The position numbers and the translations under genes are program-made. A stretch of DNA of 64,000 bases from Glomus cerebriforme (Eukaryota > Glomeromycota > Glomeromycetes > Glomerales > Glomeraceae): contig QKYT01000264.1 of the NCBI GenBank assembly GCA_003550305.1, positions 54,824-118,823 of the forward strand, in the 5' to 3' direction. The notes below the pieces were generated by a model, which was not told where the DNA came from, did no database searches, and saw only the letters and a list, made by a program, of their open reading frames with translations. Within the stretch, counting starts at the first letter, position 1. Each line of letters opens with the position of its first letter. Shown piece by piece: positions 22,804-49,133 of this stretch.

Positions 22804-23022
22804 ATGACATCTAGAAATTATAACAAACTAAAAACACGTCGAACATTACGATTAATACGTATGTCAATACGTATTCATATAGTAAATCATAATACAAATA
22901 ATGCAAATAATAACCTTATGTCTAATACAATTAATCGAATCAATCAAATTCGTCCACAGCAAACAACAAATACTACAAATACTTTTGTGGATCAATTCTA
23001 TAATGGTTCTAAATTTCCTTAG
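22804..23022 (+). CDS. Small Asn-rich basic protein, family member A
   Basis: Codes for 72 residues starting MTSRNYNKLKTRRTLRLIRM. The N-terminus is basic, the middle is Asn-rich (NHNTNNANNNLMSNT), and the C-terminus INRINQ...NTFVDQFYNGSKFP matches the core of the paralogues at 30526, 44786 and 48873 (IDRIAR...FENxFFNGISF). It is the most diverged of the four and ends right after the core. No signal peptide or membrane segment is seen. The Arg/Lys start could be a nuclear localisation signal or nucleic-acid contact (inference). The ATG follows a 12-base A run. I do not recognise the family. Similarity to the paralogues makes a chance frame unlikely. Confidence 0.6.
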   Translation: MTSRNYNKLKTRRTLRLIRMSIRIHIVNHNTNNANNNLMSNTINRINQIRPQQTTNTTNTFVDQFYNGSKFP

Positions 23023-25955
23023 AATTTTGTTTTAAAATATATTCTTTAAGCTATTAAAGAATAATAAAAATCTTATATAAGTACGTCGGAAAAAATAACT
23101 TTAAAAATTATTTATGAAAAAATAATATAGTAATAAGATAAATCAAATTTTTGTTAATAAGTAGAATAACTTTATATGTGTTATAACATCTATGTTTAAA
23201 AACTTCGCTTCAATGCAAAATAATATAGTATTCAATAATTCAATTCGATTTATTATTATGACGAATTATGGGATAAAATAATTGATAAAAACGGCTTAAA
23301 ACGAGTCGAAATGTCAATTTCATATGTAGTATATAAAGATAGTGTTCATAATATATAAATACATAAGACAATCAATTAATAAGAAAATGTGAGAAATAAA
23401 AAAAAAAATAAGAGCCTCATTCATATTAGGGATAAAACGTTTAACATTCTATCCTTCAAATTCTATAATAAGACGATTGATTTACGAAATGAAATTTGCG
23501 ATATGAAATCAATGAAAAACCATGTAGATCTTCCCTTTTTTAGACAATTTTTGATAATGCAAGTCAGAATTTTTTATTAATCATTATAGTATCTGACTGA
23601 CACTATAATAATTCCGGCCCTGAAAAAATGCGTACGGCTAAGTAAAATTCGGTTGAACCCCCATATATATATTTCTGAGTTCTATGAAACCTCAAATCAC
23701 AAGAATTTCGTACAATAATTATTAATAAGATAGATGAAAGAAATCTATACCTAATTAACCATTATATGCTGAATTCTTACACGCTCTAAGGAAATTATTT
23801 GCGGGGTAATTAGCTATTCGGCCTAACTGATAATAATAAAATTACTTGTCTTTATTATGTATGACATATATAGTAATATATCTCTAAAATCGGAAATAAG
23901 ATCCTATTGATGATAATAGATCCGATTGATTATGATCAATAATACTATCGTTAAGAAATGACTATAATTTTCAGCTGATTTATATAAATTGTTTCAGAAT
24001 TTTCCGTAAGAGGTATAAAAAAAATCACCTATTTATATCTACTATATGTCCGAAAATTTCTATGATGCCGAAAGTGGTCGGTCATAAAGCATTTAAAGCA
24101 TTTTCACTGAATTTTCACGAGATTATTATATAAACATTATATTAAATTTCTTTTTCTGAAAATCCCTTCATAAAAAAAAGATAACAAGAATTCCTATGAG
24201 CAATGAATAGAATTAAACAAGTGAGACTTTCGAGAAATTATTGCTTTTTGAACATTTATTTCATTTTTATAATACTGTATATATGAAAAGTTACACGTAA
24301 GAAACTACAATTTTATTACTTTTATTCTTGCTATTATTAATTAAAGTAATTTATTTCATTGGGATAAACAGTGTTAATTTTGAAAATTTCACGATTTAAG
24401 GGTTTATTTCTTTTTTTTTTTTTGTATATCATATGACGTTTGCGTAATATTAAAATAAATAAAGATGAGGTATAAGTCATATCATCATATAGAATTGGTC
24501 AAAATTTTCAAAATTTAAGTGTATTATATTATTACATTATTTTATCTTGATGAATAGAAATAGAATGTTAAAAATCTATGCACCCGATGAATGCATTTTG
24601 TGTTACATTTAAATTTCAAATTTTTTTGTGAACAAGCCAAATACTGTACATTATTTACAAAATACTGTACAAAGAAAAAAGGAGTTAAAATAGTAAGAAT
24701 TCTTAGAACATATTATTATTCTGCTTCGCATGATCATCAACTGTGTACATTTGAAAATATACATAAAATAAAACTTCAAAAATCATATGTTTCTTGGTAT
24801 TTTTTTTTTTATTTTTTTTTTAGAAGGGATCTCTATACCATCATATTTTATTGTAAAGCCCCAGAAGATTCAAAATATATTTTATGCTAGGAACTACATA
24901 ATTAATAAAAGGTATTCCCGTTCACGTGATAAACCCATTATTATATGTATTATTTTATAATTTCACAATTAATCGAATTACGCTTTTAAAAAGATAATTC
25001 TTGAACGAATATTTTAAAAATTTATGTAGTAACTTTTTTTTTTTATTCCGATATCAAATCGTAGAGATAACAATAGTTGATAGATAACCTTTGCATGTTA
25101 TGAGTGCCAATCCAAATCAAACATTTCTGCAAGTTTCATGTTTCACAGACATAAATATCTACTTTAATAAGTTATGCTATGGCTAGCGGCTTAAACAATA
25201 AAGCATGGTACATTACCTGTTACTTCAGATGCATGTATTCATAATCAATCAGATCTCTAATAAATTTATATGTTTTTTCATTTATATGCAAAAAAGCGGT
25301 TTGGCAAGGTTGTTATTTCCGAATTTGGAATTTAGAAATACAGTAGTACGAATTTTCAGAAATACATCTAAAGCTTCGATATGACGGATAAGCACTTTTC
25401 GTTTTTGTTCTTAAACTTCCACATTTTTCGTAATATCGATATGTAATAAAATTTTGACAAATAACTTGCACTTTTAATTACGTACACCACATGATTTTAA
25501 TGGGGCGAAAATCTTTATAAATCATCTCCAGAGGAAGATGAATATCAATACCGCATTTTCCATCCAATGCGGAAATCAACAGAGAAATTTTCCATTTGGA
25601 TTGTTAAAATCACATTTTATAATTTAAAAAAAGAAATGTTATTTCTTAATCACTATTTACACATAATAATTCAAATAAATACTCTTGATACTATTTATTA
25701 TCTTTACAATTTACTTTAAACTCCATTTTTTTTTGACCTTTCATACTTTTAAAATTATATTCTTTATCAATGTGTTCAGATATATACTTTATTACATGCA
25801 TCTGATAGTTTGTTGGAGTTTATCACCAATTTCCACTTATTTTTGACCGGTCCTATAATTCTTTTTTTTTTTTTTTATTATCGATCATTTTATTTTGTGA
25901 TAATAAATTTTACAATTAATAGACTGATTAATATCATATCCTATTTCGGGGGTGT
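23023..25955. other. Long gene-poor stretch
   Basis: No gene is supported. Open frames at 23389-23580 (63 codons, Lys-rich start) and 24591-24890 (99 codons, with TACTGTACA words and a Phe run from a T tract) have no paralogue or domain and are likely chance. The rest is AT-rich spacer. Confidence 0.5.
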
Positions 25956-25959
25956 CTAA

Positions 25960-26060
25960 AGCCAGATTCGATACCGTAATTTTTGGCCGGCATTACAGCA
26001 TTAAGAAATTTACTATGTGACAAATAATAAGTGGCAAATAGGATTTTCATATCTAAGTTC
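25960..26060. repeat. Dispersed repeat fragment
   Basis: CGTAATTTTTGGCCGGCATT at about 25975 matches the word family of the inverted repeat at 10320-10680. Directly after it, TAAGAAATTTACTATGTGAC followed by AAATAATAA (26003-26031) matches 18368-18396 with few changes. Two repeat fragments therefore abut here. Confidence 0.5.
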
Positions 26061-27030
26061 TCATAGTAAAAAGAGGTGTGATGCGGGGTGACAAATTATA
26101 TAGTGTTTCCACGTGATCGAAATCGGCTTTCTATTTCGTCGAACAACCAGGTAATTAAAACCACCTTTTTTTCTTCAACGATTGAGAACGATCAATCATC
26201 CCTTTATTTTATTTATAATTCTTTTTTGGAGCATCATGACTGACATAACATCATTATTCAATCATATTAAGGGAAATTCTTTGAGAAAACAAATCAATTC
26301 TATGAATCCATGACAATAGTACATTTATGTAGCACGTATGGCATAGGGTTATTCATTTGTTAATAATTATTATTTTATAGAACTATAATATTGTAACTCT
26401 CCTTACGCAAAAAAATGTGGGTTTAATCACTTTATAAACTTCATAAACTTACGAATTAATTGCCAAAAAATTGTTTACAATTTTAAGACATATACCGTAA
26501 TTTTTATTAATCACATTGACAATACGATCATAATGATATACTGTATATAATCATTTTATTGTATTATCATTTATCTGTTATAGATTTATTGTTCTTTTAT
26601 AATCTTTTATAAATTTTTTTTTTTTTTTACGACATACTGTATGATAATTTCTATACATTTCTTGAAGCTAGCAATTTGGGTTGTACTATCTTAGAAATCG
26701 CGTGAATTTAATAACTTGGTGATGTGTGCTATAACCTTTTTTCATTATCTTTCACATATTTAGTATTCATATTTACAATTATACATAAAAGTAAAATACT
26801 CATATATTATCTAGAAAAAAAGCTTATATTATTATTGATTTGACCAGTGTTCGGAAATGACCTAGTCATTTGATCATTTAAAGGATTTGCCTAATCAATT
26901 ATCATTATTCATAAAGCTACGCTGATGGAGTATAGAATCAATAATTTTTCACATCATGGATTTAAAAAATCATTAAATTTTTATGTAAATTCGAAGGTAT
27001 AATAAAAAAGTTATTTTTATTTCTTCATAT
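26061..27030. other. Intergenic, nothing recognised
   Basis: AT-rich spacer with several ATACTGTAT-type words (about 26539, 26635). No coding sequence is supported. Confidence 0.45.
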
Positions 27031-27129
27031 TCAGTATTATTAGAAGGTTCATAAAAGAACTGTTCGGCTGTTGTTGCTTGAAAATTAGTAAATCCGTAAA
27101 GTGGGAATAGGAGCAATTGGAGTTGCTTG

Positions 27130-27480
27130 TGCCAAGTAATTCTACCGTTTGTTGAGTATGTTGAGTAGCTAATTATTTTTTATAATTATTTTTTTGAAGA
27201 CATGATATTCAATTAATGGTAAAATGATAGAAGAATGAAGAGAGATCACTCATGATCGTAAAGTTCGCGCAACATCTGATTTTGATTGGCTTATTTCTTA
27301 TCATGTGATTCTAATCTTCTTTATGATATATCCCATCATTCAAATTTTCGTGAATATGATGAAAACAAACGTGATAATACAGTATTAAACATTTGCTATT
27401 ATGAATTTGTTGTCATATTGTTCCAATCCGGATTGTTCTGAGTTTCATCGATGGATATTGTACCGCGAACAACTAAAAAA
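27130..27480 (+). pseudogene. Weak unidentified coding remnant
   Basis: Plus-strand pieces VRATSDFDWLISYHV (about 27268-27312), HHSNFREYDENKRDNTVLNI (about 27333-27395) and CYYEFVVILFQSGLF (about 27393-27440) look protein-like but sit in different frames with stops. The family is not recognised. The call rests only on amino-acid composition. Confidence 0.25.
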
Positions 27481-27699
27481 CTTTAAAATTCTGTAGTGAT
27501 AATAAATTTAAAGTTATTCCATTATCTGATTAACGCTCTTTAATTTTTCAAAGTCTATAATTAAATTTTGATGTAATAATTTATTTTTGATTTCGAATTA
27601 TGATAAATAATAAATATATTAAACTACTTAAAACTATTTAATATTGGAATGATTCATATCTATTAATACTTATATATTGGTATTATTCAACTAAAAATA

Positions 27700-28320
27700 T
27701 TTTTGAAATCAGTGTATCATGCTCAAGATGTTTGTGACAAGTTAATATACAAAAAAAATTCTAGCTATTTGAACGATAAATTATTTTTTAAGGAAACAGC
27801 AAAGATACGGTTTGTTATCATTCCACCATTTTCTATACATATGGTGGGACTAATACAAATACCTAATCCTAAATATACAGGAAAAGCACCTCTATTTGAG
27901 ATTTGCATACCTATTTAAAGTAGAAATTAAATTTTTTGATGAGAAGGAATTTAGTTTTTTGAGCAAATTTGTAGAACTTGAGGAACTTCATTTAGGAACC
28001 GTTGAAGCATCATGATCAAAATAAAGTAATTGTACAGTCCATACTGTACCTAATTAATGAACCTAATGGTTAATATGCAGTCACTGCATATTAAGAAACT
28101 GTTTCCCCTATACATGTATATATATTTTGTAATGTTAGTTGAAACACTTGTACAACATATGGATGTTTGGAATTTTCATCGAAAAGAAAAAAGTATCGAT
28201 CGATTTTTACACAGAAAAATGACAAGGAATCAACTACACTTACTACACTTTAAAATTAAGGTTATCTTTCCTTGTTGCATAATTCATCACAGGAAGTCAA
28301 CAATCAGTTGAAAACATTCT
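27700..28320 (+). pseudogene. Unidentified decayed coding sequence
   Basis: Frame pieces: QDVCDKLIYKKNSSYLNDKL and IQIPNPKYTGKAPLFEICIP (27703-27918); after the stop, KVEIKFFDEKEFSFLSKFVE followed by LEELHLGTVEAS (27918-28015), reminiscent of a leucine-rich-repeat segment; and LVETLVQHMDVWNFHRKEKS (about 28130-28200). The order and composition suggest one broken gene of the F-box/LRR sort, but the evidence is thin. Confidence 0.3.
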
Positions 28321-28359
28321 ATGTCCTTCATACACAAAGACAGAGTGATGAAAGCCCCG

Positions 28360-29679
28360 AAAATAATGGCTTGGGTGGCTCATGCATAGATTACTAAGAT
28401 AGTGTAACAATACACTTCAAACAAATTTTAAACCTTATTTTCTTTTTTTTTTTTTTTGAGAATGTTCTATCGTAAAATTTGGACGTGCTTCTAAAGTAAG
28501 TTTTGTAATTGTGTTTTTTGAGTTCCTTAATATCCTTTTTTCTTCTCTTTCTATTTTTTTAGGAATGTTTTACTGTGAAATTCAAGAGAGCTGCTCGAGT
28601 AAGTTTCGTAATGGGGTTTCTTTTTTTCTTTTCTTTTTTTTTTTATCTATTAAATATTTTTTTTTGTTAATTACGTTCCTTTTCTCTCTTCAAAAGGCGT
28701 TGTGTTTATTATGAACTACCTACATTAGTTTTTAAAAATTTTAAGGTATTCTATTGCGAAATTTAAAAAGGTTTCAGTTCTTTTTAATAAATTAATTTTT
28801 TCTTTTCTATTTTTTTTTAGGAATATTCAATGGTTTTGGGATTTTCTTTTCTTTCTTTTTTTTTGTTTGAATGATAGTATTTAAATAATTATTAGTATAG
28901 ATTTTAACAATTTTTTCGACAAAAAATCCAATTCGTATGAGCGATCATGAACTTAAATAATTGATTTTTTTTGGTCTTGGGAAATTTCTTTTAATAAATA
29001 ATATTTATATAAATCTAGCATATTAGTATAGATTTTATTTTCAAATAAATTTTTTTTTATTTTTTTTCTCCAAAAATCCAAATTTTTTGATTTCGTCAGT
29101 ATAATGTCTCTCTGAGTTGGTATTACGAGCCTAGGTGCGTAGGAGGATAATTATACTCATTTTTTTTCTTTATTAGCGGTAAAAAAAGAAATTTTGAATC
29201 AGAAAATTTAACTACACTATTAGAACTAGTAGTTGTTTCAATTTAACTGATCTTATTAATTTTTTTATTAAATAAAAATAATCTACTTTTTCATTAATTT
29301 GAATTCCTGTTTATACTCGCTGTAATATTTAATCAGAATTAAAAAGTAATATTAAAATCCGGAGTGAGGTATCAAAAAACCAACGTGAATGAAGCCAGTT
29401 CTGAGCTGTTTTCTTTAAAAAAAAAGAGTAAAACAATTAGTAAAATTGTCTAAGAATTTACAAACCGAATAATTCTACCTCAATATCTCCCAAAAATCTT
29501 TTACCTTTTCAGAACTGGAGAATTAAAAGAAGTACGAAATTAGCATGGATAAAACAAATAAGAAACGAAGAATAAAGAAAACAAGAAATGAAATAGAAGG
29601 ATAAAAAAATACCTTGTTACACTATCTTGGATAGAATGTATCATATGACAGCGAAATTTACAAAGAAAGCCATTATTTT
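28360..29679. mobile_element. 1.3-kb segment bounded by an imperfect inverted repeat
   Basis: Left end: AAAATAATGGCTT (28360-28372) and AAGATAGTGTAACA (28396-28409). Right end: the complements TGTTACACTATCTT (29615-29628) and AAGCCATTATTTT (29667-29679). The two matched words occur in mirrored order at each end (gap 23 on the left, 38 on the right), as expected for decayed terminal inverted repeats. The interior contains the exon-like tandem array at 28460-28845 and T-rich DNA with no intact ORF. The class is unknown. Confidence 0.5.
28460..28845 (+). repeat. Tandem array of exon-like units with splice-site flanks
   Basis: Four units can be aligned. Each begins after a long pyrimidine tract. 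Unit 1 (28460-28495) reads ECSIVKFGRASK and is followed by GTAAGTTT. Unit 2 (28563-28598) follows TTTTTTTAG, reads ECFTVKFKRAAR and is followed by GTAAGTTT. Unit 3 (about 28745-28777) reads RYSIAKFKKVS. Unit 4 (28821 on) follows TTTTTTTTAG and reads EYSMVLG. Units 1 and 2 are exactly 36 bases and phase 0, so they could be spliced in or skipped without a frame change. Unit 1 has lost the AG of its acceptor (GA instead of AG). No complete gene containing them is visible. Confidence 0.5.
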
Positions 29680-30525
29680 TGGCAATTTTTCACCATATGG
29701 CATTATGTAATTGCAATATGATCGGAAGATCAAAGAATATGAGCCCTTTATGGAATAAACATGGAACACAAAAACGGGTTAACTAAGGTTTACGTAATTT
29801 AATTTATTTTTAAAATGAATTATTTTATGCGATTGGTCAAAAATATCAATTCTAAGAATAATTTGTACTTTTTAATATATGCATTGCTGGTAATTAATCA
29901 CCAGATATACAAAATTTAAAATTAATAAAATGATTTAGCAAGAGTTTCGAGTCACCTACTTTAGAATATTCTTTAAACATCATACGTTATAATACTGTTT
30001 ACCTTTCAAATCTTGTATTTCATAAACTCTTATGCGTGAATTGTGCGTGGAATTTGTTGGAAAATCAATTTTCGCGTGAAATTTCTATTTATTATTTTAT
30101 TTACCCCTTGATTGACCACTCCGACTCAGAATGAAGAATGAAGTTTGATACTCATTTAGATTATCATTTTTCATTTCTCTGTATTTTTTAAGAATAATTA
30201 ATGATCTCTTATCCGAAAGGTGCCCAGATTGTACAGTACACATTCAAAAAATTTTCTTTTTTATGCAGAATATATACACCCGAATAAAGATTTTTTATAG
30301 AACAAAAAAATCTTTTCATTGTTTAAATAGTTATATGTTACACATATCATATTTTTGTGAGAAATAAATATTTATATAAAAACCTAGGAAAAATTTTTTA
30401 CTAACCGGTATAATTTGATTATTCCTTTATTCCTTTAATTTTTAGGCAATAAGCAGATTATCAAAAATAATAAAAATAATAATACTAAACAAATAATAAA
30501 AAAATAAATTATTTCCATTATAACA
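29680..30525. other. Intergenic; upstream of small-protein gene B
   Basis: No gene is seen. Just before member B, TTCCTTTAATTTTTAG at 30430-30445 looks like a 3' splice site, so the transcript of B may have an intron in its 5' untranslated region. Confidence 0.4.
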
Positions 30526-30813
30526 ATGCCACAAAGAAAACATAAACCAAGAAAACGCAGAACATTAAGAACGTTACAATTTACGAATATCGCAAATAAT
30601 GTAAATAACGTAAACCATAACCGCACTTTACGAATTCGTTCGATAAATAATTCTCATATCGTCGACCGAATCGCTCGAATTACCTTACCACAAATTACAA
30701 CAAGTTCATTCGAAAATGATTTCTTTAACGGAATAAGTTTTTCTGATAAAGAAAATCTCAAAATTGTAAGTAGTTCGCTAGAAAATGATATTTTTAACGG
30801 AATAAGTTTTTAG
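30526..30813 (+). CDS. Small basic protein, family member B, with duplicated core
   Basis: Codes for 95 residues starting MPQRKHKPRKRRTLRTLQ, a strong basic cluster that could be a nuclear localisation signal. An Asn/Ala-rich stretch IANNVNNVNHN follows, then the family core HIVDRIARITLPQITTSSFE and NDFFNGISF. Unlike its paralogues it then repeats the last part (SSSLENDIFNGISF) and stops, so the core C-terminus is duplicated in tandem. It ends about 1.4 kb upstream of the DDX60-like gene at 32196, on the same strand. No signal peptide or membrane segment. Function unknown; the conserved core, shared with proteins at 22804, 44786 and 48873, is the main evidence that it is a real gene. Confidence 0.7.
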   Translation: MPQRKHKPRKRRTLRTLQFTNIANNVNNVNHNRTLRIRSINNSHIVDRIARITLPQITTSSFENDFFNGISFSDKENLKIVSSSLENDIFNGISF

Positions 30814-32046
30814 TTTTTATGATTCAAATCTTTAATTTTTACCACTGAATTTTACATGTATTTTTACATTTTATTACGATAATAATTAAATTAGATTTTT
30901 TTTTATAGTTCAATAAGATATTAATAATTGATGATTTTAAGATTTATTATGTATTTTATAAGATTTATTAAAATTCCTGTAGTAAGGAAGCAATTTATTT
31001 AATATGAATATAATTATAATAAAAAAGTTGAGCGTTACATATTTCGATATATATTATTAATGTTCTCGACCTAACAGATAATATTCCGATAAGAGTAATG
31101 AAACGAAAGAATTTGTAATAACACGACTTATTTGGTATTTACCCCGGATTTCTTTCTGCAATTGCCATAATGGTCCTTTTGTAATAGGATTTAGTATGAG
31201 AGAACATTCTGTATTAAATATCTATTATGAATGTGTGCAATCGGTCACATTAATCTAAAACGCGTAATTAACAATGTAATAATTTTAAATTTGGTAATTT
31301 ATTTGTAAATACAGTATAAGATTAGACTGACTGTTATTACTAACCTAATACAGAACTCATAAAATAGTAAGAACACTAATACGGAATGTAATCAAAATGG
31401 GGGAAGTGGATTTATAATAATCGACAACCAACCAAATTTATGCATCATTAGTAATTCTTATGCACCCAAAAAAAAAAAATAAAGAATTTTTATATGTAAT
31501 TTCAATTGAGTTCATTGGATTAAGAGTAAAATTGCAGATCATATTAAAAATTACGTGAAATTCAGATGTAAATTACTAGCGCAATAAATCATGCATACAT
31601 ATACATGCAAACCTTTGACAACTGAGACTTGGTTTTGATTTTAGTTTTGATAGGTACGAAAATCAAATGACAAATTTTATTATGCTATTTATACAAGATC
31701 CTTTTAATAAATATTTATAAACGTGCTTTTATCTATTAATCTCTTATTCACAATGTCTCATTAAGCTTCGTGCTCATTTTTCAAAATGTAATAATGCATA
31801 CACTAACTAAAATTGGATGAATTTTGTAAATCATTACATAACGTGATGCAAAATGGCTTACATTGCAGAATAGTGTTGCATATGTCAAAAATATTATTTT
31901 GTTAGATATATATACTTTTATGGTTAAATAGCTGTCATTTATGATATTGTTTTTAATAAGGAAGAAAATTCTTGATGTAAACCTGTTTTAAAACAAGTGC
32001 CTTATCGAATTATCGATTTTCTTTTTTTATTCCATTTTTATTTTTT

Positions 32047-32126
<80 letters not shown>

Positions 32127-32195
32127 TAAAATGCAAATCGAATTCTACACATTTTTTTTAAAAAAAAATAATTATCGTTGTAAAATTCACTCATA
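30814..32195. other. Spacer upstream of DDX60-like gene 1, with a long T tract
   Basis: No gene is seen. From about 32050 to 32125 lies a run of about 75 T with a single A interruption, ending about 70 bases before the ATG of the helicase gene. Such a tract may exclude nucleosomes at the promoter (inference) or may be a retroelement tail. Confidence 0.5.
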
Positions 32196-35100
32196 ATGAA
32201 TGAAAATGATTATGAAGCTGAATGTTGGTTAAGTGAATGGTACAGCAAATGTCGTAATAAATATATTGACCTTGTCGGTGATTTTGGAGGTAATAACAAC
32301 GTGGTTTGTGAAATAATTAGTATTAATTTTGATTCAAATTTTAAAATACAATTAACATTAATTTATCTAATAAAATTATAGGTAGCGAATTATTCGTAAT
32401 AGATGGGGATAGTTTACTTTTTAAGTTTCTTTATGATCCTGAAACAGATTTTCTTGATTTTGGTCAATCTATTAGTGGAGGACAATTTTTAGCTCTGACT
32501 TTTTTGGTCGAAAATTTTCTTAAAAAACTTAAAGATCGTGAATGCGGTTTTCATATCGCTTTCTTTGATGTTCATAAATCTATATGGAATAACCGACCAA
32601 AATTACGAATTGCCAGAGAAATTATTATTAATCACTTAAAATTTAATACTAATATTCAAGTCTTTGAATTTAAGAATTGGTGGACTAAAGAATGGAGAGA
32701 ATATCTAGATGATAGACAACCCTTATTTATTTTAACTGGTGATGGCTCAACAGAACATTCAATTGATGATTCATCAACTTCTGGAATTGCAACAAAAAAT
32801 TCACTGAGTCTGGCTACTATCTCGTTACAAGCATTTATATTCTCTTCACTTCATTTAGATATGCCTGTCGCACTTTTACCTGGGATGGAATTTAGAGATT
32901 CACGTTCGTACGCTTTTGTATGTGAAAGAGGTGGTAATGTTGATCTAGAAACTCAAAACAAATCGGATGTTATTAAAAAATTGGCTATAAAAGCATTTAA
33001 AAAATACGATGAAAAATCAATGTGGTTCAAAAATTTCAAATTAACATCATCGGGCAGGGATTTGCTAAGTTCTCAAAAATATTTGAATGTATGGAGAAAT
33101 GGTGGGAAAAGGATCGCTCTTATTATATTATCCTTGACAGGAGTTTTGTGTAATAATAATGATAAACCAGTATTTAAATATCTAGCAAAAATATTTTTGT
33201 TTCATATTATTCTCCTAGACTATCTTCCTTTAAAGTTAAGGACCGCGCCACCATTAAGCAAAGATTTTGATGAAAGTACAATTGAATTATTCCTGCAAGA
33301 TTTTTATATTTATTGTATTAAATTTTACATGGGCGGCACTCTTCCAAGTAATTTTCAAAATTTAAAGAATAACCTTTATGATTTAGTAGATACGAGACTT
33401 TTTGTATCCTTAATTCAATGTCGTTACGACGGTACGCTAAATTTTAACGTTCTTCCTGAGATCAAACAACAGTTTGATGCATATTGGAATCTATTAAACA
33501 AATTTTGTGAATGCAATGGACTTAATTCTTTAGACGTCGATAATGAAGAAATCTTTAGGGAGATTTTCAAAATTAAAATTGATCCAAAATCACGTTATTT
33601 AGAATATAACGGAAAAGCGAATCTTCTTCCTTTTGAATATGAATTTTTTGAAGAGTATCTTGGAGATATGCATTTAGAACTTCCTGAAAATTCAAATGTA
33701 GAAATTGACGCGGGTCATTATGGATTAATTGGAGATGTTTATTATGATGATAATACACATTGGCACTCTACAAAACCGATCAAAGACGCAAATAAATCAG
33801 ATTATTATTATAACAAACATAAAACCTCTTGGGAACGAAAAGATTATCAAAAGTATGTGAGATTTCTAGAAAGATATGCGGCTTCATTAAATGGCACACA
33901 AGGATATTATACACAAGATATAATTGTTGACAAGTCAGCTAAAAAATCACCAGTTAAGGAATCTGCTGGTGCAATAAGGACAAGAGAGAAAATCGAACAA
34001 GAGAAATTACAAAAATCCCTAGATACCTCTGAGCGGAATCTTAACAATGTTTTGAAAGAAATTTCGAAAGATAAAAATATAATAAATCAAATTAAATTTT
34101 TGGATAACAAACTTGAAAAAAAAGACAAAATTGAACATCCATTTACTAAGTTTAGAGGACAATTCAAAAAGTTGGAACTCTTGTTGGAGCTTTGGGCCAA
34201 ACATTGTAAAACATCTAGCATGAAAAGTGACTGGATAATTCCTATAGACATATTGCATCAAGTGTTTTATATTGTGCAGAATTTTTCAAAATATTTGGAT
34301 GATGAGAGGAAGAGAAACTTAATTGAGGTTTTAAATAGACTTGATTTTATCAATTGTAAAAACCGTCTGGAAAACATTGATACAGTTTTAAATAAAAATC
34401 TTCCGTCGTTTAGTTTTAATTTACCTGAAAATTCTATTGATTTATCTATTGAAATATCTGACGCAAGATTTCAAATGTTATATGCGGGTCATTTAATGGA
34501 CCGAAATACAAATTCTGTAAAAGATCGAAGAGTCCCATTTAAGCCAGGTAATTTTTTTTATTAAAAAAAATTTCTCTTGATGTAAAATATTTTGATTAAT
34601 AAAATGTACTATTTTATTAGATGAATGGCAAGTCAAAGTATTAGATTTAATCGATAGAAACGAATCCGCATTAATTTGCTGTCCAACTTCTTCGGGAAAA
34701 ACTTTCATTTCATTCTATGCGATGGAAAAAGTTCTTCGGGAAAGTGATGATGGAATTTTGGTATATGTTGCTCCTACCAAAGCTTTGGTTAATCAAGTAA
34801 CAGCTGAAATTTATGGTCGTTTTCAAAAAAAATATAAATACGGTAATAAAACAACTTGGGGTATATATACTCGAGAATATCGTGAAAATCATGATAGATG
34901 TCAAATTCTTGTAACAGTCCCGCAAATGCTTGAAATATTAGTTTTATCTCCGCAACGTGCATCGTGGGCTAGAAATATAAAAAGGATCATTTTTGATGAG
35001 GTAAAAGATTATTCCCACAATTTTTTTTTATTGAAATTAAATAATTTAATTTAATATCTTAAAAAGGTTCACATGATCGGATTAGACGGGGGAGAATATT

Positions 35101-37670
35101 ATGATCATTTATTGTTATTGAACAAGTCCCTACCGATTTTAGCCCTTTCAGCTACTATCGGGAATCCAGAAACATTTCATAGGTGGATAGCTAAATCTAA
35201 AGAGGTTCATGGACGTCCAATGAGACTTATTAAAACAACAAAAAGATTTTCAGATTTACAACAATATGTGTATTTACCAAAGTTCCCATTCGATTCGCTC
35301 CTTAAAACAACAGTAAATCCAAGAGAAAAACATCGGCAAAGTAATAGTATAGTTCCTATTAATCCAATATTTTCTCTATCGATGGTCATTTTAAAAGAAC
35401 ATGGATTGCCTAGTGATATGAAACTTGTTCCATCTCAATGTGTTCAACTTTGGGACGTAATGAAAAGACACGTGGGTGATAATCCACCAAATGGATTTGA
35501 TAATTTAGATCCTGATGTTTATTTTAAAGACATTGGTTATATTGTCAAAGATAATGCTGACAAATATGAACAAGATCTCAAGCGAGCTTTTACAAATTAT
35601 GCAAGGGATGATTCTTCAAGTGAAATAGTAATATCGACTATTGAAGAATTAGGAACTGATATTAAAAATGGATTTAAAGGATTAGAATCAACAGCTAATG
35701 GATTAGATATTTATGGAGACGAATTTTTTGAAAAGGGAATTGTACCATTGTTATGTGAACTCTCAGCACAAGACAAACTTCCTGCCATTTTGTTTCATTT
35801 TGATAGAAAAGGATGTATCGAACTTGCACTTCATGTTTTGGAGCAATTAGAGTTAGCAGAGAACACGAAAAGAGCTGATGATCCGGAATATCAAGCCAAG
35901 AAGAAAGAAGCAATATCTCAGGAAAAGGCTCGTGAGAAAGAATCGAAGAGAAAACGAGATTTAAAGACAAAAGAAGATATTACCCAAAGTGAGACCCATC
36001 CGGAACTAGAAGAACCTATTCCGACAATTTTTGACTGGGAAGCACATGATCCTGATTTTACTTTTGTAAATCCAAAGCATAAAGTTTCTTCAGAAGAGTT
36101 TGAAAAAATAATCGAACATGCACGTCAAAAAATGGGAAGCAATTCCAGGTTATTAATAGCATTAGAAAGAGGTATTGGGGTACATCATTCTGGTCTTCCT
36201 AAAAAGTATTTAAGCGCAGTTGAAATTCTTTTCAGGCGACGTCATTTAGGAGTTATCATTGCAACTGGCTCTTTAGCTCTTGGTATAAATATGCCATGCA
36301 AAACAGTAGTATTCGTTGGAGATTCAATTTTCCTCACTGCTTTACAATACAGACAAATGTCTGGAAGATCAGGAAGAAGAGGCTTTGACCCTATTGGGCA
36401 TGTAATATTTTTTGGCATACCTCTTGCAAAGATCATAAGACTTCTTATGTCAGGGTTACCGAGTCTTTCAGGTCATTTTCCTTTAACAACAACACTTGTT
36501 TTACGTTCTTTCAATCTTCTTAATCAATGTAAAGCTAAAAATGCCCTTGATTATAATTATGCCAAAAATGCTATCGAAGGATTATTTAGCGAATCTTTTT
36601 TCTGTCTTGGCAAGGAATATTTATCTGAACAAATTAAACATCACTTAAGATTTTCTATAGAATATTTGATGCGCGAAAATCTTATAGATCAAAAAGGAAA
36701 CTTAATCAATTTATCTGCAATGGTCTCACATTTATATTATGCGGAACCGAGTAATTTCGCATTTTCTGTTTTATTTAAGCATGGAGTGTTTCATAAAATT
36801 TGTTCAAATTTAAGAAAAAACTCACTACATGAAGTAGTAAAGAATGAGTTAATTTTAATTCTTTCTCACCTATTTAATAGAGTTAAATTACGTAAATATT
36901 CCGGAGCTTTACGCAAAAACCCAAAATATCCTTCTAAAATAATCTTACCTCCTTTACCGAAAGATGTTAATGAAATTTTAACAAAGCATAATGAACGTAT
37001 ATTAAAGATATACACCGACTATGTTGTGACTTTCGCAGAAAACAATTATTCTAAGCTGGGAATTGATAATATCTTACCTTTATCAACAATCACAATCCCT
37101 CCTATTAAGTCTATGAATCAAAACTTATTAAGGGAAGATCCTATGATTCCTAAACTTGAATCTATTGCGATTTCGTTTGTTGCTCGATCTCCTTTTATTG
37201 CTATGTGTAGTTCTTTAGGTGATACTTTTGTTAATTTAGAAGATTTAACGAGTCACATTCATAGTAAAATATTTTTGGAACTTCGTAGTATACCTTTTAT
37301 TAAGACAGATGAAGTTATTAATGCATATATAAGTGATTTTTTTTCTCATGGTCAAGAGAAAGCACTTGTTGAAGCAAACGGATTAAAGCGTGGTGAAGTT
37401 TGGCAAGTATGTACTTATAATATTTGTTAAAATAATTTTAAATAATTTTGAAAATCCATGAATAATTATTTTCTCGTTGATTTTTAGGTTTTAAAAGATT
37501 TCCATTTGATTCTTTTGTCAATAGTTAGTTCTTTAACAATAAGAATTCAAGAAATACGTAAAAATGTAGAATTAGAAAAAAATTTAATGGAGGAAGAAGA
37601 ACTTGTTCTTAAAGGATTTGAAATGGTTCGAGCACACTTTGAAGAAAAATACAAACGTATTTGGGCCTAA
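32196..37670 (+). CDS. DDX60: DDX60-like DExH-box RNA helicase, copy 1
   Basis: Five exons (32196-32289, 32382-34547, 34621-35000, 35067-37406, 37488-37670) splice to 1720 aa, close to the roughly 1700-residue length of animal DDX60. The start is supported because copy 2 has a first exon of the same 94 bases with the same protein start. The N-terminal region carries FVIDGDSLL (36-44) and ILTGDGS, resembling the PIN-like N-terminal part of DDX60. The superfamily-2, Ski2-like core is complete: Walker A PTSSGKT (775-781), APTKAL, DEVH (879-882), SAT (908-910), HHSGLP (about 1253), ATGSLALGIN (about 1279) and QMSGRSGRRG (about 1310). A charged Lys/Glu insert lies between the two RecA lobes. The family binds and unwinds RNA; animal DDX60 has antiviral and translation-control roles. 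The fungal role is unknown. It is presumably cytosolic. Confidence 0.9.
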
Positions 37671-40965: not shown

Positions 40966-41224
40966 AAATTCAAAAGTATATAATCAAAATAGTTAACTTT
41001 TTTTTAAGATAAATAAAGTTTGATGATGATTATTTTAATGATTATTTAAAAAAACTTTAGATTGACACGAGAACTTGAATTCGATATCGACAATAATATT
41101 GATTCTAATATACTATACATTTATTACTTGATATAGTTGCTTTGCTTACACAGGCTTAACAATTTTCAACTAAAGATAAAATAAGAGTCTTACTATTACA
41201 TTATTAAATATTTGAATTAGTTGT

Positions 41225-41930
41225 CTATTCAAATTTTACACAACATTTCAGACATTTGACTATTCCTCTAATACAGTACTCGACAGCACGAATTTCATCG
41301 CCAAAATTTTTCCAAATCAATAGCCTATTAAAACTATTGAAAGTTTTTGAAGAATATAATATCATAAATATTAGTAAAATAGGACCTGCTGCTTTATCAC
41401 GTAATTTGGATGTTCGTCTATCCAAAACGACGTTTCAGCGACAATTAACATTTATTACTCAGAAATTATTTAAGAAAAGAAACCTCATTTATATGAATGT
41501 ACTGTTTTACAGTTATTCCTTTACATCACAAAAATGAACAAGTACTGAAATGTAATTTAAATTCTTTGGAATGCACGCTTACAATTCTGATCAATAATAT
41601 TATAAAAATATTTTCTTGTGCGTAAAGGGTGGTGGTCTTGTTATCGATAATTTTATTTTTTATTCAATACCAAATAACGTATAAAAAAGATCATTATAAA
41701 AATTATTTAGTATTATTGGAAGAACTTGTGTTTGTAGAAGACGCCGCAATAATGAGGGCTCCGATGTCATTAGGTACACGATATTCCATATTAGTAGTCA
41801 ATTAAAAAACCAACTTAAACGACATCCAGATTTTGAATGTATAACAAGCTTTTGCCCAGGATTCGGTTTCATTATTAAAACAATTTCTTTCGTCTACAAG
41901 ACAGTTAAAGAAAAGGGTTTTTGTTAGAAT
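41225..41930 (+). pseudogene. Unidentified coding-like stretch, probably decayed
   Basis: The open frame 41256-41537 (93 codons; KIGPAALSRNLDVRLSKTTF) has protein-like composition. Further pieces follow after stops: YLVLLEELVFVEDAAIMRAP (about 41703-41765), then in another frame LKRHPDFECITSFCPGFGFI (about 41812-41870). A 66-codon frame on the minus strand (41225-41425) overlaps the first piece, so the strand is not certain there. I do not recognise the protein. Confidence 0.3.
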
Positions 41931-42182
41931 TCATATTGTATTTATTTGTTTACAAAAATATTTAATAAATTATCAGCCTATAATTAAATCGCTAAAAAAA
42001 GCAGTTTGGAAAAATGACGAAATGACAAATGACAGTTTTATTTTCGATCGATTTGAATCACATGATAAGTTATCAGCCAATCAAATCAAATGACTGAAAT
42101 GACCAATGACAAATCTCACAAAAAGATTGATTATCCATGGCGCACCAGAACAGACAAAAATACGTTTATAAATTTTTTATTA

Positions 42183-42464
42183 TTATGGCACACCAAAACA
42201 GACTTGCTTAAACGTTTATTTAAACGCTTGCAAGTGTGCCACATTATGATAAATTTAGAGTTTCCATAAAAAATTTTCCGAACAAATTTGTTTATTTGTT
42301 TTTGTAGCACAAAATTTAAAAGCTAACTTTAATACTTATAAACGCTTTAACTGTTAATATTTTTTTAACGTTTATTAACCGTTTAAAATGTGAAAACAAT
42401 CGTTTAAATCTACATCTTAAGCATTTAAGCAAACGTTTAAGCAAAATATCTTGGCGTGCCATAA
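42183..42464. mobile_element. 282-bp non-autonomous element with long terminal inverted repeats
   Basis: The left end TTATGGCACACCAAAACAGA, then CTTGCTTAAACGTTTATTTA, is mirrored on the right by CAAACGTTTAAGCAAAATAT, then CTTGGCGTGCCATAA. The arms are roughly 45 bases with mismatches. Inside, words such as AAACGTTT and CGTTTAA recur. No coding capacity. A related partial end, CATGGCGCACCAGAACAGAC, occurs at about 42137. MITE-type element; superfamily not assigned. Confidence 0.7.
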
Positions 42465-43203
42465 GCCCAACCTTATTTAAATGTGTTTATTATATTAATA
42501 ACTATTCTGACATTAAGATGTTTAATAAATAGATGATATTGTCGCTAAATTTATCTTAAACGCCTTCCAGATTACAGTATTAAATATAAAAATACACGTT
42601 TTTTAATACAAAATCAAATCATTATAAATGATTATCATAATAAAACAATGTCAATTATATTTTTAATATTTCAAAATCTTTGTCATCAAAATGCTAACTT
42701 ATAAATTATTTCTCTTATCTTCAAGTTTGCAATAGATAATTTCTTCTTCTATGTTATTTCCATATAATATAGGATACTAGTAGATGTGGTGAACCTTTAG
42801 GCGGCATTAAGATGTGTAATAATGGATATAGTTACAGTAATATACTACAAAATAAAAATTCAAAAAGAAAAAAAAATCTGGAAAATAAAATAAACGAAAT
42901 TCAAAACCATCAGAAAACAAAACTAACACAACAAAACACAATGAAATATTGAAAATAAGCAGTTCCGCACTCGTCACTCACTGTCATCAAATTTGTCCTT
43001 CATTCTGCTATAAAGGGGTCGCCGCATCCGTGGATTTATGCAGTTTCTCTCGGCGTCACCTCTACACATACCCCAACAATTAACTGAAGGGCCTCATGAC
43101 CCTTAGGATATATATCCCGGGATATACACACAATTAGTCTACATAACATATCTTATTAAAAGATAAATACATCATTTTATTCCTTTTTCATGTGATATTG
43201 ATA
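42465..43203. other. Spacer with a GC-richer island and a 16-bp palindrome
   Basis: At 42960-43140 GC content is clearly above the surroundings (AAAGGGGTCGCCGCATCCGT, TCTCTCGGCGTCACCTC). The minus strand there reads GDAERNCINPRMRRPLYSRM, so it may be a fragment of a gene or repeat. TATATCCCGGGATATA at 43111-43126 is a perfect palindrome, and AAGGG...CCCTT just before it forms another small hairpin. No tRNA or rRNA match could be recognised. Confidence 0.45.
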
Positions 43204-43298
43204 CTCTATAAAAAAATTCTGGAAACAATTCCGAAAAATGATCATTTTCCTGGTTTTTATTCCGACAAAATCATTTTTCTGAAAAATTTTTTATAGAG
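43204..43298. mobile_element. MITE-like copy, CCCTATAAAAA family, nearly full palindrome
   Basis: CTCTATAAAAAAATTCTGG on the left is mirrored by AATTTTTTATAGAG on the right. The interior GATCATTTTCCTGGTTTTTA with TTCCGACAAAATCATTTTTC continues the foldback. At 95 bases it is the most symmetric of the four copies in the window. ATA flanks both ends and may be part of a target-site duplication. Confidence 0.7.
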
Positions 43299-44785
43299 AT
43301 ATGATGAACAAAGTTATTGGGTGGTGATTCTTATGAATCATGAGTCGGGATTTATCATAAATAAACTTAGGAGCTTAAGCAGCGAATATTTAGCCAATAT
43401 TCCAATAATTTATTATCTTCCCCACGGTAAAACTATAATACGAAAATTTTTAAATAATAATTTTCAAGGTCCAAATATTTTCTAACTTAAATGTATTACA
43501 CACAATAATTATAAATCGGGCTTCGATTTAATTCACGGAATATAAGCAAATAATTAACAAATTACAAATTTTATTTAGATATATTGAATTTAAAATAAAT
43601 TCGCGCGCGTTATGAATTAAAAATATCGGTGGTTATTAAAATGAACAATTGTTGGTATTTTTTTTTAAAAAAAAAATATCTAAAAAAGTAAATAATAAAT
43701 TGCCGAGTTGCCGAATCACGCAATTGATTAATTATTTAGATGCTTTTTAATTGTTTATTTTTTTTTCCTAAACCTTATGCTAAAATCATGCAAAAGCTCG
43801 CCCAATAATATTCTTATCGTTAAACGTAGATTTTTTTTTACGGAGTTTTTAAAAATTTAACTGAAATGGTTTAAACCGTAAGTGTCTAATTGGATAAAAT
43901 AATGTAGGATTTGTAAATACTATAAGTTCGGATTTAAGATAATAACTTAAGTACTTAAGCCCGCCGGAATATTCTTGAAATAGATTTTCAATTAAATTAA
44001 TATTATAAACAAATAAAAACTTTTTATTAAAACAAATCAAAATACCTTTAATAATACAGTATGTATTTAATATATATTGATCATCATAATAACCCCTCGG
44101 ATTTAAAATTTAACCGTGGCCCTAACTATTTTCTTTATTTTCTTATTTCATGAAAAATTTATAGAAAAAAAAAAATTATAAAAAACTAAACTGTATTTAA
44201 AATCTTGACTAATTTATAATTCAGTTATTCATTGATACTGTTCAACATATTTACTTGTTACATCGTAAATATATTGATTTTACAACTGAATGTATTTTTT
44301 ACATAAAAAATTTAATTAATTCGCAGAGGATATGGCGCGAGTGCGCGATAAATTGTGAACAAATTTGACACCTAACCGTTTGCATCCCTAGCTAAACTTA
44401 ACCAAAACTCCGCTTCTTAATGAATACCTGAAAAGTAATGGAAGAACGGAATGGGAATCATATGACATTCAACTGAAGAATATTTTTATTTATACTTATG
44501 GATTAAGAATACATGCCAAAATTAAGAGATAATTATATAACGTGATGTTTTGACAACACATAATAATGTGGATATTAGGAAATAAAACAATATTATATCT
44601 AATATCAAACGAAGAAAAAAAAACTTATTAAATTTACTTATTAAGTTAACTGCTTAAATTCTTAATTTAAATAGGATAATCTTAGAGGGTTTAGTTGTAA
44701 ATAACGTAAATATCAAAAAAGAAAAAAAAAAGGGAATTTTACATGAAAATATAGGAGTGAGGATGGAAAAAAAACACAATTTTAA
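43299..44785. other. Intergenic, nothing recognised
   Basis: AT-rich spacer. A 63-codon minus-strand frame (43849-44040) has no supporting features. No repeat family was recognised. Confidence 0.45.
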
Positions 44786-45028
44786 TTAAGGACATCCGGC
44801 AGGAAAAACTAAAGATTGAAAATCATTATTATCATTGAAGCTTATCCCATTAAATAAATTTTTTTCAAAAGAATTATTTGTAATTTGAATTATATCTATT
44901 CTAGCGATTCGGTCAATCGTATCCGAATTATCTATCGAAATAATTTGGATATTATTATTATTTGCATTATTTGCAATAGGTCTTGACGTTCCACGTCGTT
45001 TTCGTTTATGATTTCTTTGTCGAGGCAT
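44786..45028 (-). CDS. Small basic protein, family member C
   Basis: Codes for 80 residues starting MPRQRNHKRKRRGTSRPI (basic, possible nuclear localisation signal), then ANNANNNNIQI, the core TIDRIARIDIIQITNNSFEK and NLFNGISF, and a tail NDNNDFQSLVFPAGCP that is also present in member D. The start codon is the ATG that aligns with members B and D. No secretion signal or membrane segment. Minus strand, in the spacer between the two DDX60-like genes. The family is unrecognised; four related copies in one window argue that it is real. Molecular function unknown. Confidence 0.7.
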   Translation of the reverse strand: MPRQRNHKRKRRGTSRPIANNANNNNIQIISIDNSDTIDRIARIDIIQITNNSFEKNLFNGISFNDNNDFQSLVFPAGCP

Positions 45029-45921
45029 GATTATGTTTGTCGATATAATTTATTTATTTATTTTTTATTTTTTTTTTAAGAATTAAAAAAATGCTGAATT
45101 TTTAGAGCTTTTTTTTCTACGAAAAATTTTAATATGTTAAATGACTTAAATCATTTAAAGCTCGAAGATTGTTCTCATTTTATAGATTGATAAAACTTTG
45201 AATCATGTGTTAACACAAATGTTATTTTTTTATTGAATTATTCAGATCTAGAACTTGTCAAAGAACTGTGAAATTTGAACCATGAATTGTGAACGGTAGC
45301 CAGATATCAATCAATCTATCTAGCTAAAACAGGAAGAATTTCAAAGAAAGCAAAAATATTTCGTTTTTAACCCCGTGTTTACTCTATATTTATTATATGT
45401 ACGCCATTCCTTTGTTATGAAGACGCAATTATTAGATTTATATCATCCAATTACTTTACAATTAACTAATTAGGAATTATGAGATATTTTTTATAGAAGG
45501 TAATATTTTTATATAGCATAATATAGTAATATATAATATATGGTTTTTTTTAACTGACGGTAAGAATTTACAATGATTAAATACTAAACAATATTTTAAT
45601 GATTACTAGAATCAAATAAATCATAATTTCATTAGAATTTTACAATGATGATTCACTATTAATGCTATATTAATCTAAAAATTCGAATAATATTTCATGA
45701 TTATTCACTTTCCTCAAAATTATCAACAAATTAAAATGGGTAGATAGAATAACAAATAAGATTCGAATATCCACACGTTAATTAGGCACATTTTAATTTG
45801 GAAATCATCTGTGTAACTTTAGTCTTATATCAAGTAAATTTACTCAATTAAGTAAATAAAAAAAAGAATAGAATTATAATATAGTTTAATAGCTAAAAAT
45901 CAAACTAACTATTTTTGGTGT
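45029..45921. other. Intergenic; upstream region of member C
   Basis: Strongly AT-rich with T runs next to the start of member C. No gene is seen. Confidence 0.45.
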
Positions 45922-45989
45922 CCCTATTAAAATTTTCTGGTAACAACTCCGATAAGTAATCATCTCTTGGGAAATGTGATCATATAGGG
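45922..45989. mobile_element. Short MITE-like copy, CCCTATAAAAA family
   Basis: CCCTATTAAAATTTTCTGG on the left and GATCATATAGGG on the right form short inverted ends. The interior AACAACTCCGATAAGTAATC matches the complement of TTATCGGAGTTGTT in the 20231 and 20746 copies. At 68 bases it is internally deleted relative to those. Confidence 0.55.
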
Positions 45990-46860
45990 TAAACAGTATG
46001 TCAAAATGTTAGTTCCACATAAGTAATCTTTGATCATTATCCTTAAAAAACGCGTCTTTTGAACAAAAAAAAACGGGTAACCGTTAAAAAGAGCAAACAA
46101 ACGTCATAATGTAATATATGTAATAGGAAATCGTGAAAGACGGCGAAGTGATGGCTTTCTTTGTTTACAATTTTTTTTTGTTGTACAAAAAAAAAATCTA
46201 GAGACGTTGAATGTGATCATAAAACTATGAAATCTGCAAAAGGAAATAATCCGTAATCTGCCGCCTAAGCCATTAATTTAGTTTAATGTAATATTACCAT
46301 CTTTTTTTTTCGTGTAAAGATTTCTATACGCCTATACCAACAACGGTTAAAATGAGAAGTAATTTAGCTAGCCAAGATGCAAAAAAACGTTTATTCCCTT
46401 TATTGTGTGACATTGATGACGTTATTAATAAAGTATCTTTGTTTTTTTGTGTGCATTATTGTTTTATCATATTATTTATCAAATAAACAAAATCATTGTA
46501 CAAAAAAAAAGACAATATATATCATCTGAATATATATATTCATAAACTAAAAAAAAACCTAATGTCGCTTAAAGTAGCACTATGCAGTGTAATATGTAGC
46601 AAATGGTGTCTCTGTAAATTTGTAAGCTAATCAAAAATTGACTTATGTGCCTATTATTTCCTCACTTACTGTGAGCTAATTCTCTTTAACGATTTTTTGC
46701 AAAACAAATATAGCAATCAGTCAAGTCGCAGTCGTAATTTACCGGATCAAACATAATGCTGGTCCCGAATTATAAATCACGTGATATAGATGAGTTTGAC
46801 CACCCACGTGCTTTTAGGTTAGCGTATGGTATGTATGGTCGGTAAGACGAAAAGGAGTGG
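45990..46860. other. Intergenic, nothing recognised
   Basis: AT-rich spacer. A segment at 46140-46170 (GATGGCTTTCTTTGTTTAC) resembles the right end of the 28360-29679 element (AAGCCATTATTTTTGGC region) only weakly. No coding sequence. Confidence 0.4.
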
Positions 46861-47597
46861 TGTCGGATTAACCAAATAAGTATTGTATGGTGCTGTAATC
46901 ACTATTGAGTATGGTTTTTATAGTATACTATACTTAGCTGTATAAACAATCGAAATGAGTATTATATACTTATTAATTTAAAATTTATACTCAACTGCCA
47001 CATAAAGAAGATTAAGAATAGCAACCATTTATTATTATTATAAATTTAAAGTTTGTATATAGTGTTGAAATAGAAAATAAGAAAAATTTTAATTTTTAAA
47101 ACGAAATATTATACTGTATTTGAAATACTTTTATTTAATACTATTGTTAATTAACCAATTTTAATTGTCACGATTATATAATTCCATTTCACGAAATTTA
47201 GCTTCACATTCCCTTAATGCAATTTCTCGTTCTTTTAATGTATATCTTTTACTTATTTTTCGCGTAAAACAAGTAAAGATAATATTCTTTGTAAAATAAC
47301 TAACAAGTAAAAATCGTTCTGTTTATGTGAAAATNATATGTTTTTTCGTGTAAAATAAGCAGAAATAATATTTTTTCCGTATGAAATATTTATAAGTGAA
47401 GATATATTAAGAAGCGTGAAGATAATATTTCAGCCATGGCAGTGTGGGACAATAAGACTTTTGTCTTGATTGTATACTGGCGCAGAAGAGTATTATAAAT
47501 TATATAATAATTATTTACTACAGTAGTAGCTTTACAAATCATACAGCGGAGTATATTATTTCACATGACATACAATACTTATTTGGTTAACCCGACA
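46861..47597. mobile_element. 737-bp DNA transposon derivative with 29-bp terminal inverted repeats
   Basis: The terminal repeats (46861-46889 and 47569-47597) agree at 28 of 29 positions and start TGTCGGRTTAACCAAATAAG. The interior carries a minus-strand coding remnant (47161-47260) and a diverged internal direct repeat (TTTTTCGCGTAAAACAAG near 47258 and TTTTTTCGTGTAAAATAAG near 47341, followed in both by a ATAATATT word). This is an internally deleted, non-autonomous derivative of a larger element. An undetermined base lies at 47335. The superfamily is not assigned; a target-site duplication could not be identified with confidence. Confidence 0.75.
47161..47260 (-). pseudogene. C-terminal coiled-coil fragment inside the 737-bp element
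   Basis: The minus strand reads TRKISKRYTLKEREIALREC, then EAKFREMELYNRDN and a stop at 47161-47163. The regular Glu/Arg heptads indicate a coiled coil. Such tails occur on DNA-binding accessory proteins of DNA transposons, which suits its place between terminal inverted repeats. It is a fragment only: no start and no DNA-binding domain remain. Confidence 0.5.
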
Positions 47598-48872
47598 CTG
47601 TATTACTCATGTATGTTCCATACTCTTATTATTTATTATTTATCACATTGCATCACATGATCTATATTTCGTTTCTAATTATCACATCTATCACATATCA
47701 ATGTTTATATGATTTTGCATAATTCTGGCTAAGTTTAAATTTTGAAAATATTAAATCCATAGTAATTTTTGGCCAGGAAATTTTTTTTTAAAAAAATCAT
47801 TTTTTCACACTTTAAATTTTTCATGCTTATATCTAGATGTAAAAAATCGATTTATCTATTAATTTTTATGCTTAACTTTTTTGACATTGTATTTTAATAA
47901 TAATAAAAAGCATATTTATTTGTAATTTATGTTTGAAATATTTGACATGTATATAAAATAAAAAATTAAATTAAATGATGTTTTATATGTTTATTTATGT
48001 GTAAAAATTATTTTAAACACGTATAAACATCATTAAAAAAAATACCCACAATTCTGTGAATATTTAACATATTTTGATAAAAATTAATATCTGAATACTT
48101 CTATATCTGTTTAATAACTTTGCTTAGACTTTAAAAGAAAATTTACTTTAACCAAAATACTAAAGTTACGCTAATATTAATAAAATAATGACAATAGTTT
48201 TAAAATAAATTTCACACCTAAATAATTATTTAAGCCTAAATTTTTTATTCAGTCAGTTTTTATTAATATCTTTTTTTTTAAAAAAAAAAGAGAAAGATCG
48301 CGAAATTATTGTTATAACACGTGAACAGATTAATAAAGGGCTGATGCGCCACAAAATCACGTGAGGTGAAAGATACTAGTGTGAGCTCATTTATTGACTC
48401 ATTTATATTTTCTTTCTATATACTCGTTAGAATAATATTTATTGTTTGGTACTTAAATATACTATTTATATTTATAATAAATTATCTAATGTGAAATTAA
48501 TAATTATTATATTTTAGTTTTAAATAACAAATTTAAACAACAATCAATTTCACACATTAACGTTTTTTAAACTCTATTAGCATTATTAAGAATTTGTTGT
48601 CAATGTAAATTTCTATCAAGTGTAAGTTAAATATATGTTCATTCTAATATAAGTTAAATATATTAATCACTTAATCTCTATCAAATAAAAATTCTAATCA
48701 AATATTAGTTCTATCAATTATAGGTTCTATCAATTAAATATATTTGTGATAAAAAGTAAAAAAAAAATATCAATCATTAGTGTTTGTAATTTGGATTTAC
48801 TCATTTTGTATATTTCCGTGAATTCAACGAGTGAATTTTGCAAAATTAATTAATGATGAATTTACTGTATAT
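47598..48872. other. Intergenic, nothing recognised
   Basis: AT-rich spacer. A loose repetition of ATTCTAATATAAGTTAAATA and TTCTATCAATTATAGG words at 48600-48740 is visible. No gene. Confidence 0.45.
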
Positions 48873-49133
48873 TTAGGGAAATAACGAAGAAGGTGTAAAC
48901 CCAGCGGGTAAAATTAAAGACTCAAAATCGTTGTTATCATTAAAGTTTGTTCCATTAAAGAAATTATTTTCAAGAGGATTATTTGTAATTTGTCTTATAT
49001 TTATTCTAGAGATCAGGTCAATGGTATGAGCATTGCTTTTCAATCGATTTCTTGAAACGCGAGATTGTACCGTATTATACGCATTATTCGCAATAAATCG
49101 TGGTGAATTTCGTGTTCTTCGTTGTGATGGCAT
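48873..49133 (-). CDS. Small basic protein, family member D
   Basis: Codes for 86 residues from the ATG at 49133 (MPSQRRTRNSPRFIANNAYN). I prefer this to the upstream in-frame ATG at 49220 because it aligns with the starts of members B and C. The core reads TIDLISRINIRQITNNPLEN then NFFNGTNF, and the tail NDNNDFESLILPAGFTPSS matches member C. A TATATAAG element lies about 125 bases upstream of the start. It faces away from the second DDX60-like gene (ATG at 50648), about 1.5 kb apart, so the two could share an upstream region. No secretion signal is seen with this start. Function unknown. Confidence 0.68.
   Translation of the reverse strand: MPSQRRTRNSPRFIANNAYNTVQSRVSRNRLKSNAHTIDLISRINIRQITNNPLENNFFNGTNFNDNNDFESLILPAGFTPSSLFP

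Follow-up and report, generated by a model that had tools for sequence, protein, structure and literature searches.

Arbuscular mycorrhizal fungi reportedly possess a MATA_HMG-like family, described by Riley et al. in 2014 as cited in PMC7490403 and PMC4771724; the subfamily label MATA_HMG follows papers and is tentative here. The closest described systems are HMG-box factors and microproteins. The literature on these fungi reports expanded HMG-box gene families (PMC4771724) and an induction of HMG-box genes in roots occupied jointly by two Rhizophagus isolates (PMC7490403). Two further papers present microProteins as small proteins having one module of larger multi-domain proteins (PMC6003976) and Nrs1 as a nuclear microprotein of budding yeast acting on a transcription complex (PMC8893695). 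In this study, we analysed four short open reading frames (ORFs), designated copies A to D, in a 64,000-nucleotide stretch of Glomus cerebriforme DNA (contig QKYT01000264.1, positions 54,824 to 118,823, i.e. G000:C374:54824-118823), this whole stretch being referred to as the window. The short family to which they belong is very probably of HMG-box ancestry, and we give about an even chance to the four ORFs encoding ‘headless’ microproteins of HMG derivation, with a probable regulatory role in the nucleus. Support for the ancestry is good; the function is what we infer.

All four ORFs, initially reported in a first-pass annotation as small basic proteins at 22804 (+), 30526 (+), 44786 (-) and 48873 (-), are present with an ATG and a stop codon, and all are short forms. 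Copy A (22804-23022, + strand, 72 residues) is the most divergent: it begins MTSRNYNKLKTRRTLR (N-terminus MTSRNYNK), has an Arg/Lys-rich head and a core reading INRINQIRPQQTTNTTNTFVDQFYNGSKF, which is closed by FYNGSKFP, and lacks the ESLILPAG tail. Copy B (30526-30813, + strand, 95 residues) starts MPQRKHKPRKRR; its core (30625-30756) reads VDRIARI, it is also devoid of the ESLILPAG tail, and a second partial core is found at 30763-30813 (8.0 bits with the core profile). Copies C (44786-45028, - strand, 80 residues, starting MPRQRNHKRKRR) and D (48873-49133, - strand, 86 residues, starting MPSQRRTRN) both carry the core followed by a tail, i.e. NDNNDFQSLVFPAG and NDNNDFESLILPAG, respectively. 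For copy D, whose closest relative is P0006, an in-frame ATG at 49220, upstream of its start, would yield 115 residues. As copies A and B are devoid of the acidic-hydrophobic end, the window contains two kinds of short forms. Additionally, the 3′ end of a fifth copy, absent from the first-pass annotation, lies at 1-56 (+ strand), where the copy (82 residues overall, C374:54631-54879) is cut by the window edge.

The layout initially proposed for these proteins needs some amendment. The three basic N-termini that had been quoted belong to copies B, C and D, copy A having a different start, so that one was misassigned. The proposed core, IDRIARI..QIT..SFE..FFNGISF, describes copy C well and copy B nearly, but copy D reads IDLISRINIRQITNNPLENNFFNGTNF and copy A is a weak member; the tail NDNNDFxSLxxPAG is indeed common to two copies, C and D alone. 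Scores with the core profile were 91.7 bits for copy D, 70.6 for C, 53.9 for B and 15.9 for A, the best match beyond known copies reaching -1.5. Used as genome query, copy B retrieved 24 other loci at E<=1e-3 (best 1.4e-18), well above chance; with copy A no other locus was retrieved at this threshold (best other 0.0012), and its DNA matches a long paralogue within the coding part (E 8e-9). The four copies are paralogues. On the 3′ side of copy A, a stretch of 170 bases (23516-23685, + strand) shows 79 % identity to a stretch in the flank of the long form C723_48, and part of it matches a flank of the long form C699_263; it may be a distinct repeat or an ancient 3′ region that these loci have in common.

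The genome contains at least 40 distinct related loci on 14 contigs, at least 8 of which are on the contig of the window; they were obtained by merging the matches (E<=1e-3) of four protein queries after exclusion of HMG-domain-only hits. They comprise 22 short ORFs that were analysed, 11 long ones and 7 loci that were interrupted, partial or not analysed. Six weaker short basic ORFs without the C-terminal tail (two on C440, three on C2 and one on C318; E 0.0012 and above) were added, bringing the short set to 28. Protein database searches gave 23, 21 and 98 proteins, the last search allowing E<=10 with a weakest match of 4e-8. All hits with an organism name are from Glomeraceae, i.e. Rhizophagus (irregularis, clarus, diaphanus), Glomus cerebriforme and Funneliformis (mosseae, geosporum, caledonium). 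The family is real and occurs in several species. Seven of the 39 family ORFs of the genome are identical to proteins labelled Glomus cerebriforme; considering short forms only, an identical protein was found among the database hits for 1 of 28 ORFs and for none of the four window copies.

In the short-form and long-form members scanned against Pfam and NCBIfam, no credible match was obtained (the first-pass annotation knew no family with the core), and the 98 database proteins are all without a precomputed Pfam domain. When solved structures were searched with profiles of the two alignments, short and long, matches were at chance level only (E at least 0.17). Literature searches on the protein names, on truncated HMG-box families in these fungi and on small proteins with mating-type HMG in Rhizophagus retrieved no description of the short forms or of their module, subscription papers being mostly outside this scope, and no Glomeraceae short-form family was among the matches listed for microproteins.

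The link with HMG-box proteins came from long paralogues of the same genome (134-179 residues), in which the same C-terminal module stands behind an N-terminal HMG-like domain. Compared with HMG-box proteins of this genome, the latter domain gave 96.1 % (hhalign, E 3.4e-9; controls at most 1.3 %); the alignment covers the whole box plus an N-terminal extension, and the domain is tentatively predicted to fold like an HMG box. Nevertheless, long forms differ from canonical HMG-box transcription factors (PF00505) in that no HMG hit was obtained with the Pfam model at E<=1 (L010, L049, L072, L075, L076, P0014, P0017, P0020 and P0021), and in that they lack the RPPN or SPN motif of five canonical proteins compared. 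Short forms are further removed, since none of the four window copies matches PF00505 and the first two helices are missing together with the beginning of the third. Both forms also possess the C-terminal module, which is absent from these five proteins and matches no Pfam family. That the family has no known relatives is thus not supported, since longer paralogues connect it to HMG-box proteins; the module itself has no known family. One long paralogue, C711:33149, has PF00505 genes in its vicinity: contig C711 (G000:C711) carries several of these HMG-box genes at about 25-56 kb, close to this long-form member, a possible place of origin. A long-form subgroup (L014, P0036, P0039 and P0040) displays a Leu/Arg-rich insert of variable length between HMG helices 1 and 2 (RLQLYKTH-type repeats).

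The alignment of short forms (35 rows) matches that of long forms with 99.9 % (E 6.5e-33) and starts near long-form residue 99, inside helix 3; read by eye, the junction is RFINNANN against RFTNLANNANN. Homology begins inside this helix, and short forms lack the rest of the box: helices 1 and 2, the invariant Trp included, are gone, as is the beginning of helix 3, and an Arg-rich head is present instead. Accordingly, none of the 28 short forms exceeded 5.1 bits with the N-terminal domain profile, vs 53-146 bits in the 11 long ORFs of the genome, and a few database proteins (e.g. P0008, P0041, P0065, P0068, P0088 and P0096) gave a partial match. A dedicated test for a box remnant within 600 bases upstream of the 28 short loci gave no signal exceeding controls, and the highest score of the N-terminal profile over all six frames of the window was 4.8 bits; hence, no hidden upstream exon was found. 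A decayed HMG remnant upstream of copy D, which one search had joined across three stops, was discarded on the basis of the same 28-locus test. Two C440 copies scored 5.0 and 1.5 bits at the right place for the very start of the long form, values not above controls, a hint that they may keep this start.

A tree of the module was inferred from 133 rows and 59 columns, 15 of 148 sequences (copy A among them) being excluded for too little or no module matched. On this poorly resolved tree, the short/long label has to change 15 times (about 44 times with shuffled labels), 2 of these changes being forced by starred, i.e. well-supported, branches. Some short forms of the genome group with short forms of R. 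irregularis and other database sources (supports 82-91, none starred), an indication that short forms are older than these species and that there may have been several losses of the box.

The 28 short forms have a median length of 82.5 residues and a median isoelectric point (pI) of 11.5, vs 149 residues and 7.8 for the 11 long ones. Their heads are nearly acid-free: the first 20 residues of the 28 copies total 150 Arg and 15 Lys, i.e. 29 % Lys or Arg and 2 % Asp or Glu. Motifs resembling a nuclear localisation signal occur in a minority of them (7 of 28 vs 0.8 in shuffles). Beyond the head, the short protein is predicted to be mostly disordered, with low-confidence helices at residues 34-43 and 53-60 of copy C. 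Conservation peaks in the module, which consists of the core TIDRIARI..PQITNN.FE..FFNGT.F (the Gly of FFNG being present in 133 of 133 rows) followed, in most members, by FESLILPAG. Like microProteins (PMC6003976), short forms are thus small and hold a single module of a larger protein; they differ in that the module in common is not among the known interaction domains and in having an additional Arg-rich head, and interference is here putative.

As regards ancestry, which has good support, an HMG-box lineage of Glomeraceae carrying a private C-terminal module let its box diverge past Pfam recognition, and members of this lineage, having lost helices 1, 2 and the start of 3, now open with some 20 residues that are rich in Arg and poor in acidic side chains. 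As regards mechanism, we propose that this head would keep the protein nuclear or bound to nucleic acid, and that the module still present, for which mostly disorder and two short helices are predicted, would bind the partner that it also binds in long forms; the acidic-hydrophobic end would, speculatively, be a co-regulator contact. The small proteins would then compete with the long HMG-like proteins, or bridge them, and tune their output. Such a regulatory role of short forms is about as likely as not. As a microprotein that acts on a transcription complex in the nucleus of a fungus, Nrs1 (PMC8893695) provides a precedent for this mode of action; however, it is a single gene of a distant fungus, and the comparison is one of mode of action, not of homology.

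Several other explanations were weighed. As independent nucleic-acid-binding proteins, the short forms would bind RNA or DNA directly through the head, the module being unrelated to HMG regulation and the HMG link one of ancestry only. The strong Arg bias of the head, the gap in pI between short and long forms, the predicted disorder and the absence of the module from the canonical HMG proteins compared make this a possibility, albeit a minor one, given that the best conserved parts are not the head but the core and tail, which are common to long forms. The composition of the first 20 residues would also be expected of a mitochondrial targeting presequence, but heads inspected by eye, with no predictor, have few hydrophobic residues and no evident amphipathic helix, and the relatives are HMG-like proteins, so that mitochondrial precursors are very unlikely. 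Small, basic, multi-copy proteins of a plant symbiont could be secreted to act on the plant host, or be antimicrobial peptides, and copy D would open with a hydrophobic stretch if read from the ATG at 49220. From the ATG common to relatives, however, short forms open without such a stretch (by eye, no predictor), there is no cysteine pattern (one position is Cys in 40 of 133 rows), and the module is common to HMG-like proteins; we regard secretion as highly improbable. Finally, the first-pass annotation had itself raised the case of four fragments of one repetitive element, which would account for many copies on both strands. DNA of 39 copies with flanks up to 1.5 kb was compared, a flank match being either flank-only or extending >100 bases beyond the coding part. 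Flanks match too in 30 of the 245 pairs having any DNA match, but these are mostly close duplicates, and 59 of the 61 matches of window copies overlap the coding part and extend at most 56 bases past it, the remaining two being one separate stretch 3′ of copy A. Since these matches lie in the coding part, the window copies are not pieces of one repeat, an origin that is barely conceivable.

Decaying leftovers have to be considered along with selection: on this reading, HMG-family genes would have been truncated and multiplied by duplication, with weak selection or none acting on them, and some would still be open by chance. Several loci would fit: C186 has 2 in-frame stops, C2:308276 and C723:57291 have 1 each, C800:142540 is a fragment, and the C622 copy lacks the usual start; the scarcity of database-identical proteins for short ORFs points in the same direction. 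The first-pass annotation had argued for selection on the protein sequence, and the ratio of nonsynonymous to synonymous change (dN/dS) is below 1 in every computed pair (0.14-0.67 in the listed pairs; 0.42, interval 0.23-0.78, for C/D and 0.38 for B/C), with an interval reaching 0.97 or more in 4 of 6 window pairs. These pairs (>=58 % protein identity over >=50 codons, plus the six window pairs) were selected and aligned by protein similarity, which biases dN/dS downward; a neutral simulation was therefore added on 7 recent non-overlapping pairs, less biased and relying on an assumed mutation spectrum. Pooled, these pairs show 72 amino-acid changes vs 87.5 expected, a total as low being reached in 1 of 500 simulations; taken singly, six fit neutrality and only C2_431/C2_422 stands out (17 of 500 simulations). 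There are thus signs of purifying selection in the family, which between recent copies is present but modest, and the initial argument holds weakly for them. Moreover, C524 and C374_39 are 96 % identical in their coding part vs 75-80 % in far flanks, some short forms group across species, and the Arg-rich head is a consistent feature. Altogether, decaying leftovers appear unlikely.

Among the other genes of the window, two closely similar tandem DDX60-like helicase genes (32345-37430 and 50746-55968, + strand) are each split by introns or frame breaks, PIN-like_DDX60 and Helicase_C domains being found in the first; copy B is just before the first gene, and copies C and D are between the two. 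A Sel1-repeat protein with 10 matched stretches is encoded at 15153-16991 (+ strand), the open-frame start of which resembles the end of a protein kinase domain. At 57723-59252 (- strand), a protein gave an F-box-like match below the Pfam cut-off.

Extending the microprotein reading to the whole family, it is a tentative and rather unlikely proposition that a multi-gene layer of HMG microproteins arose in Glomeraceae, acting in trans, stripped of the box perhaps several times and equipped with Arg-rich heads. This layer would tune an HMG network, expanded and mating-type-like, in fungi for a long time regarded as asexual. Conserved small genes from an HMG-like lineage, mostly missing among the annotated proteins found, would add a regulatory layer to the question of sex and nuclear control in these fungi. 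They would likewise illustrate clearly, for early-diverging fungi, how a family of transcription factors can give rise to microproteins.
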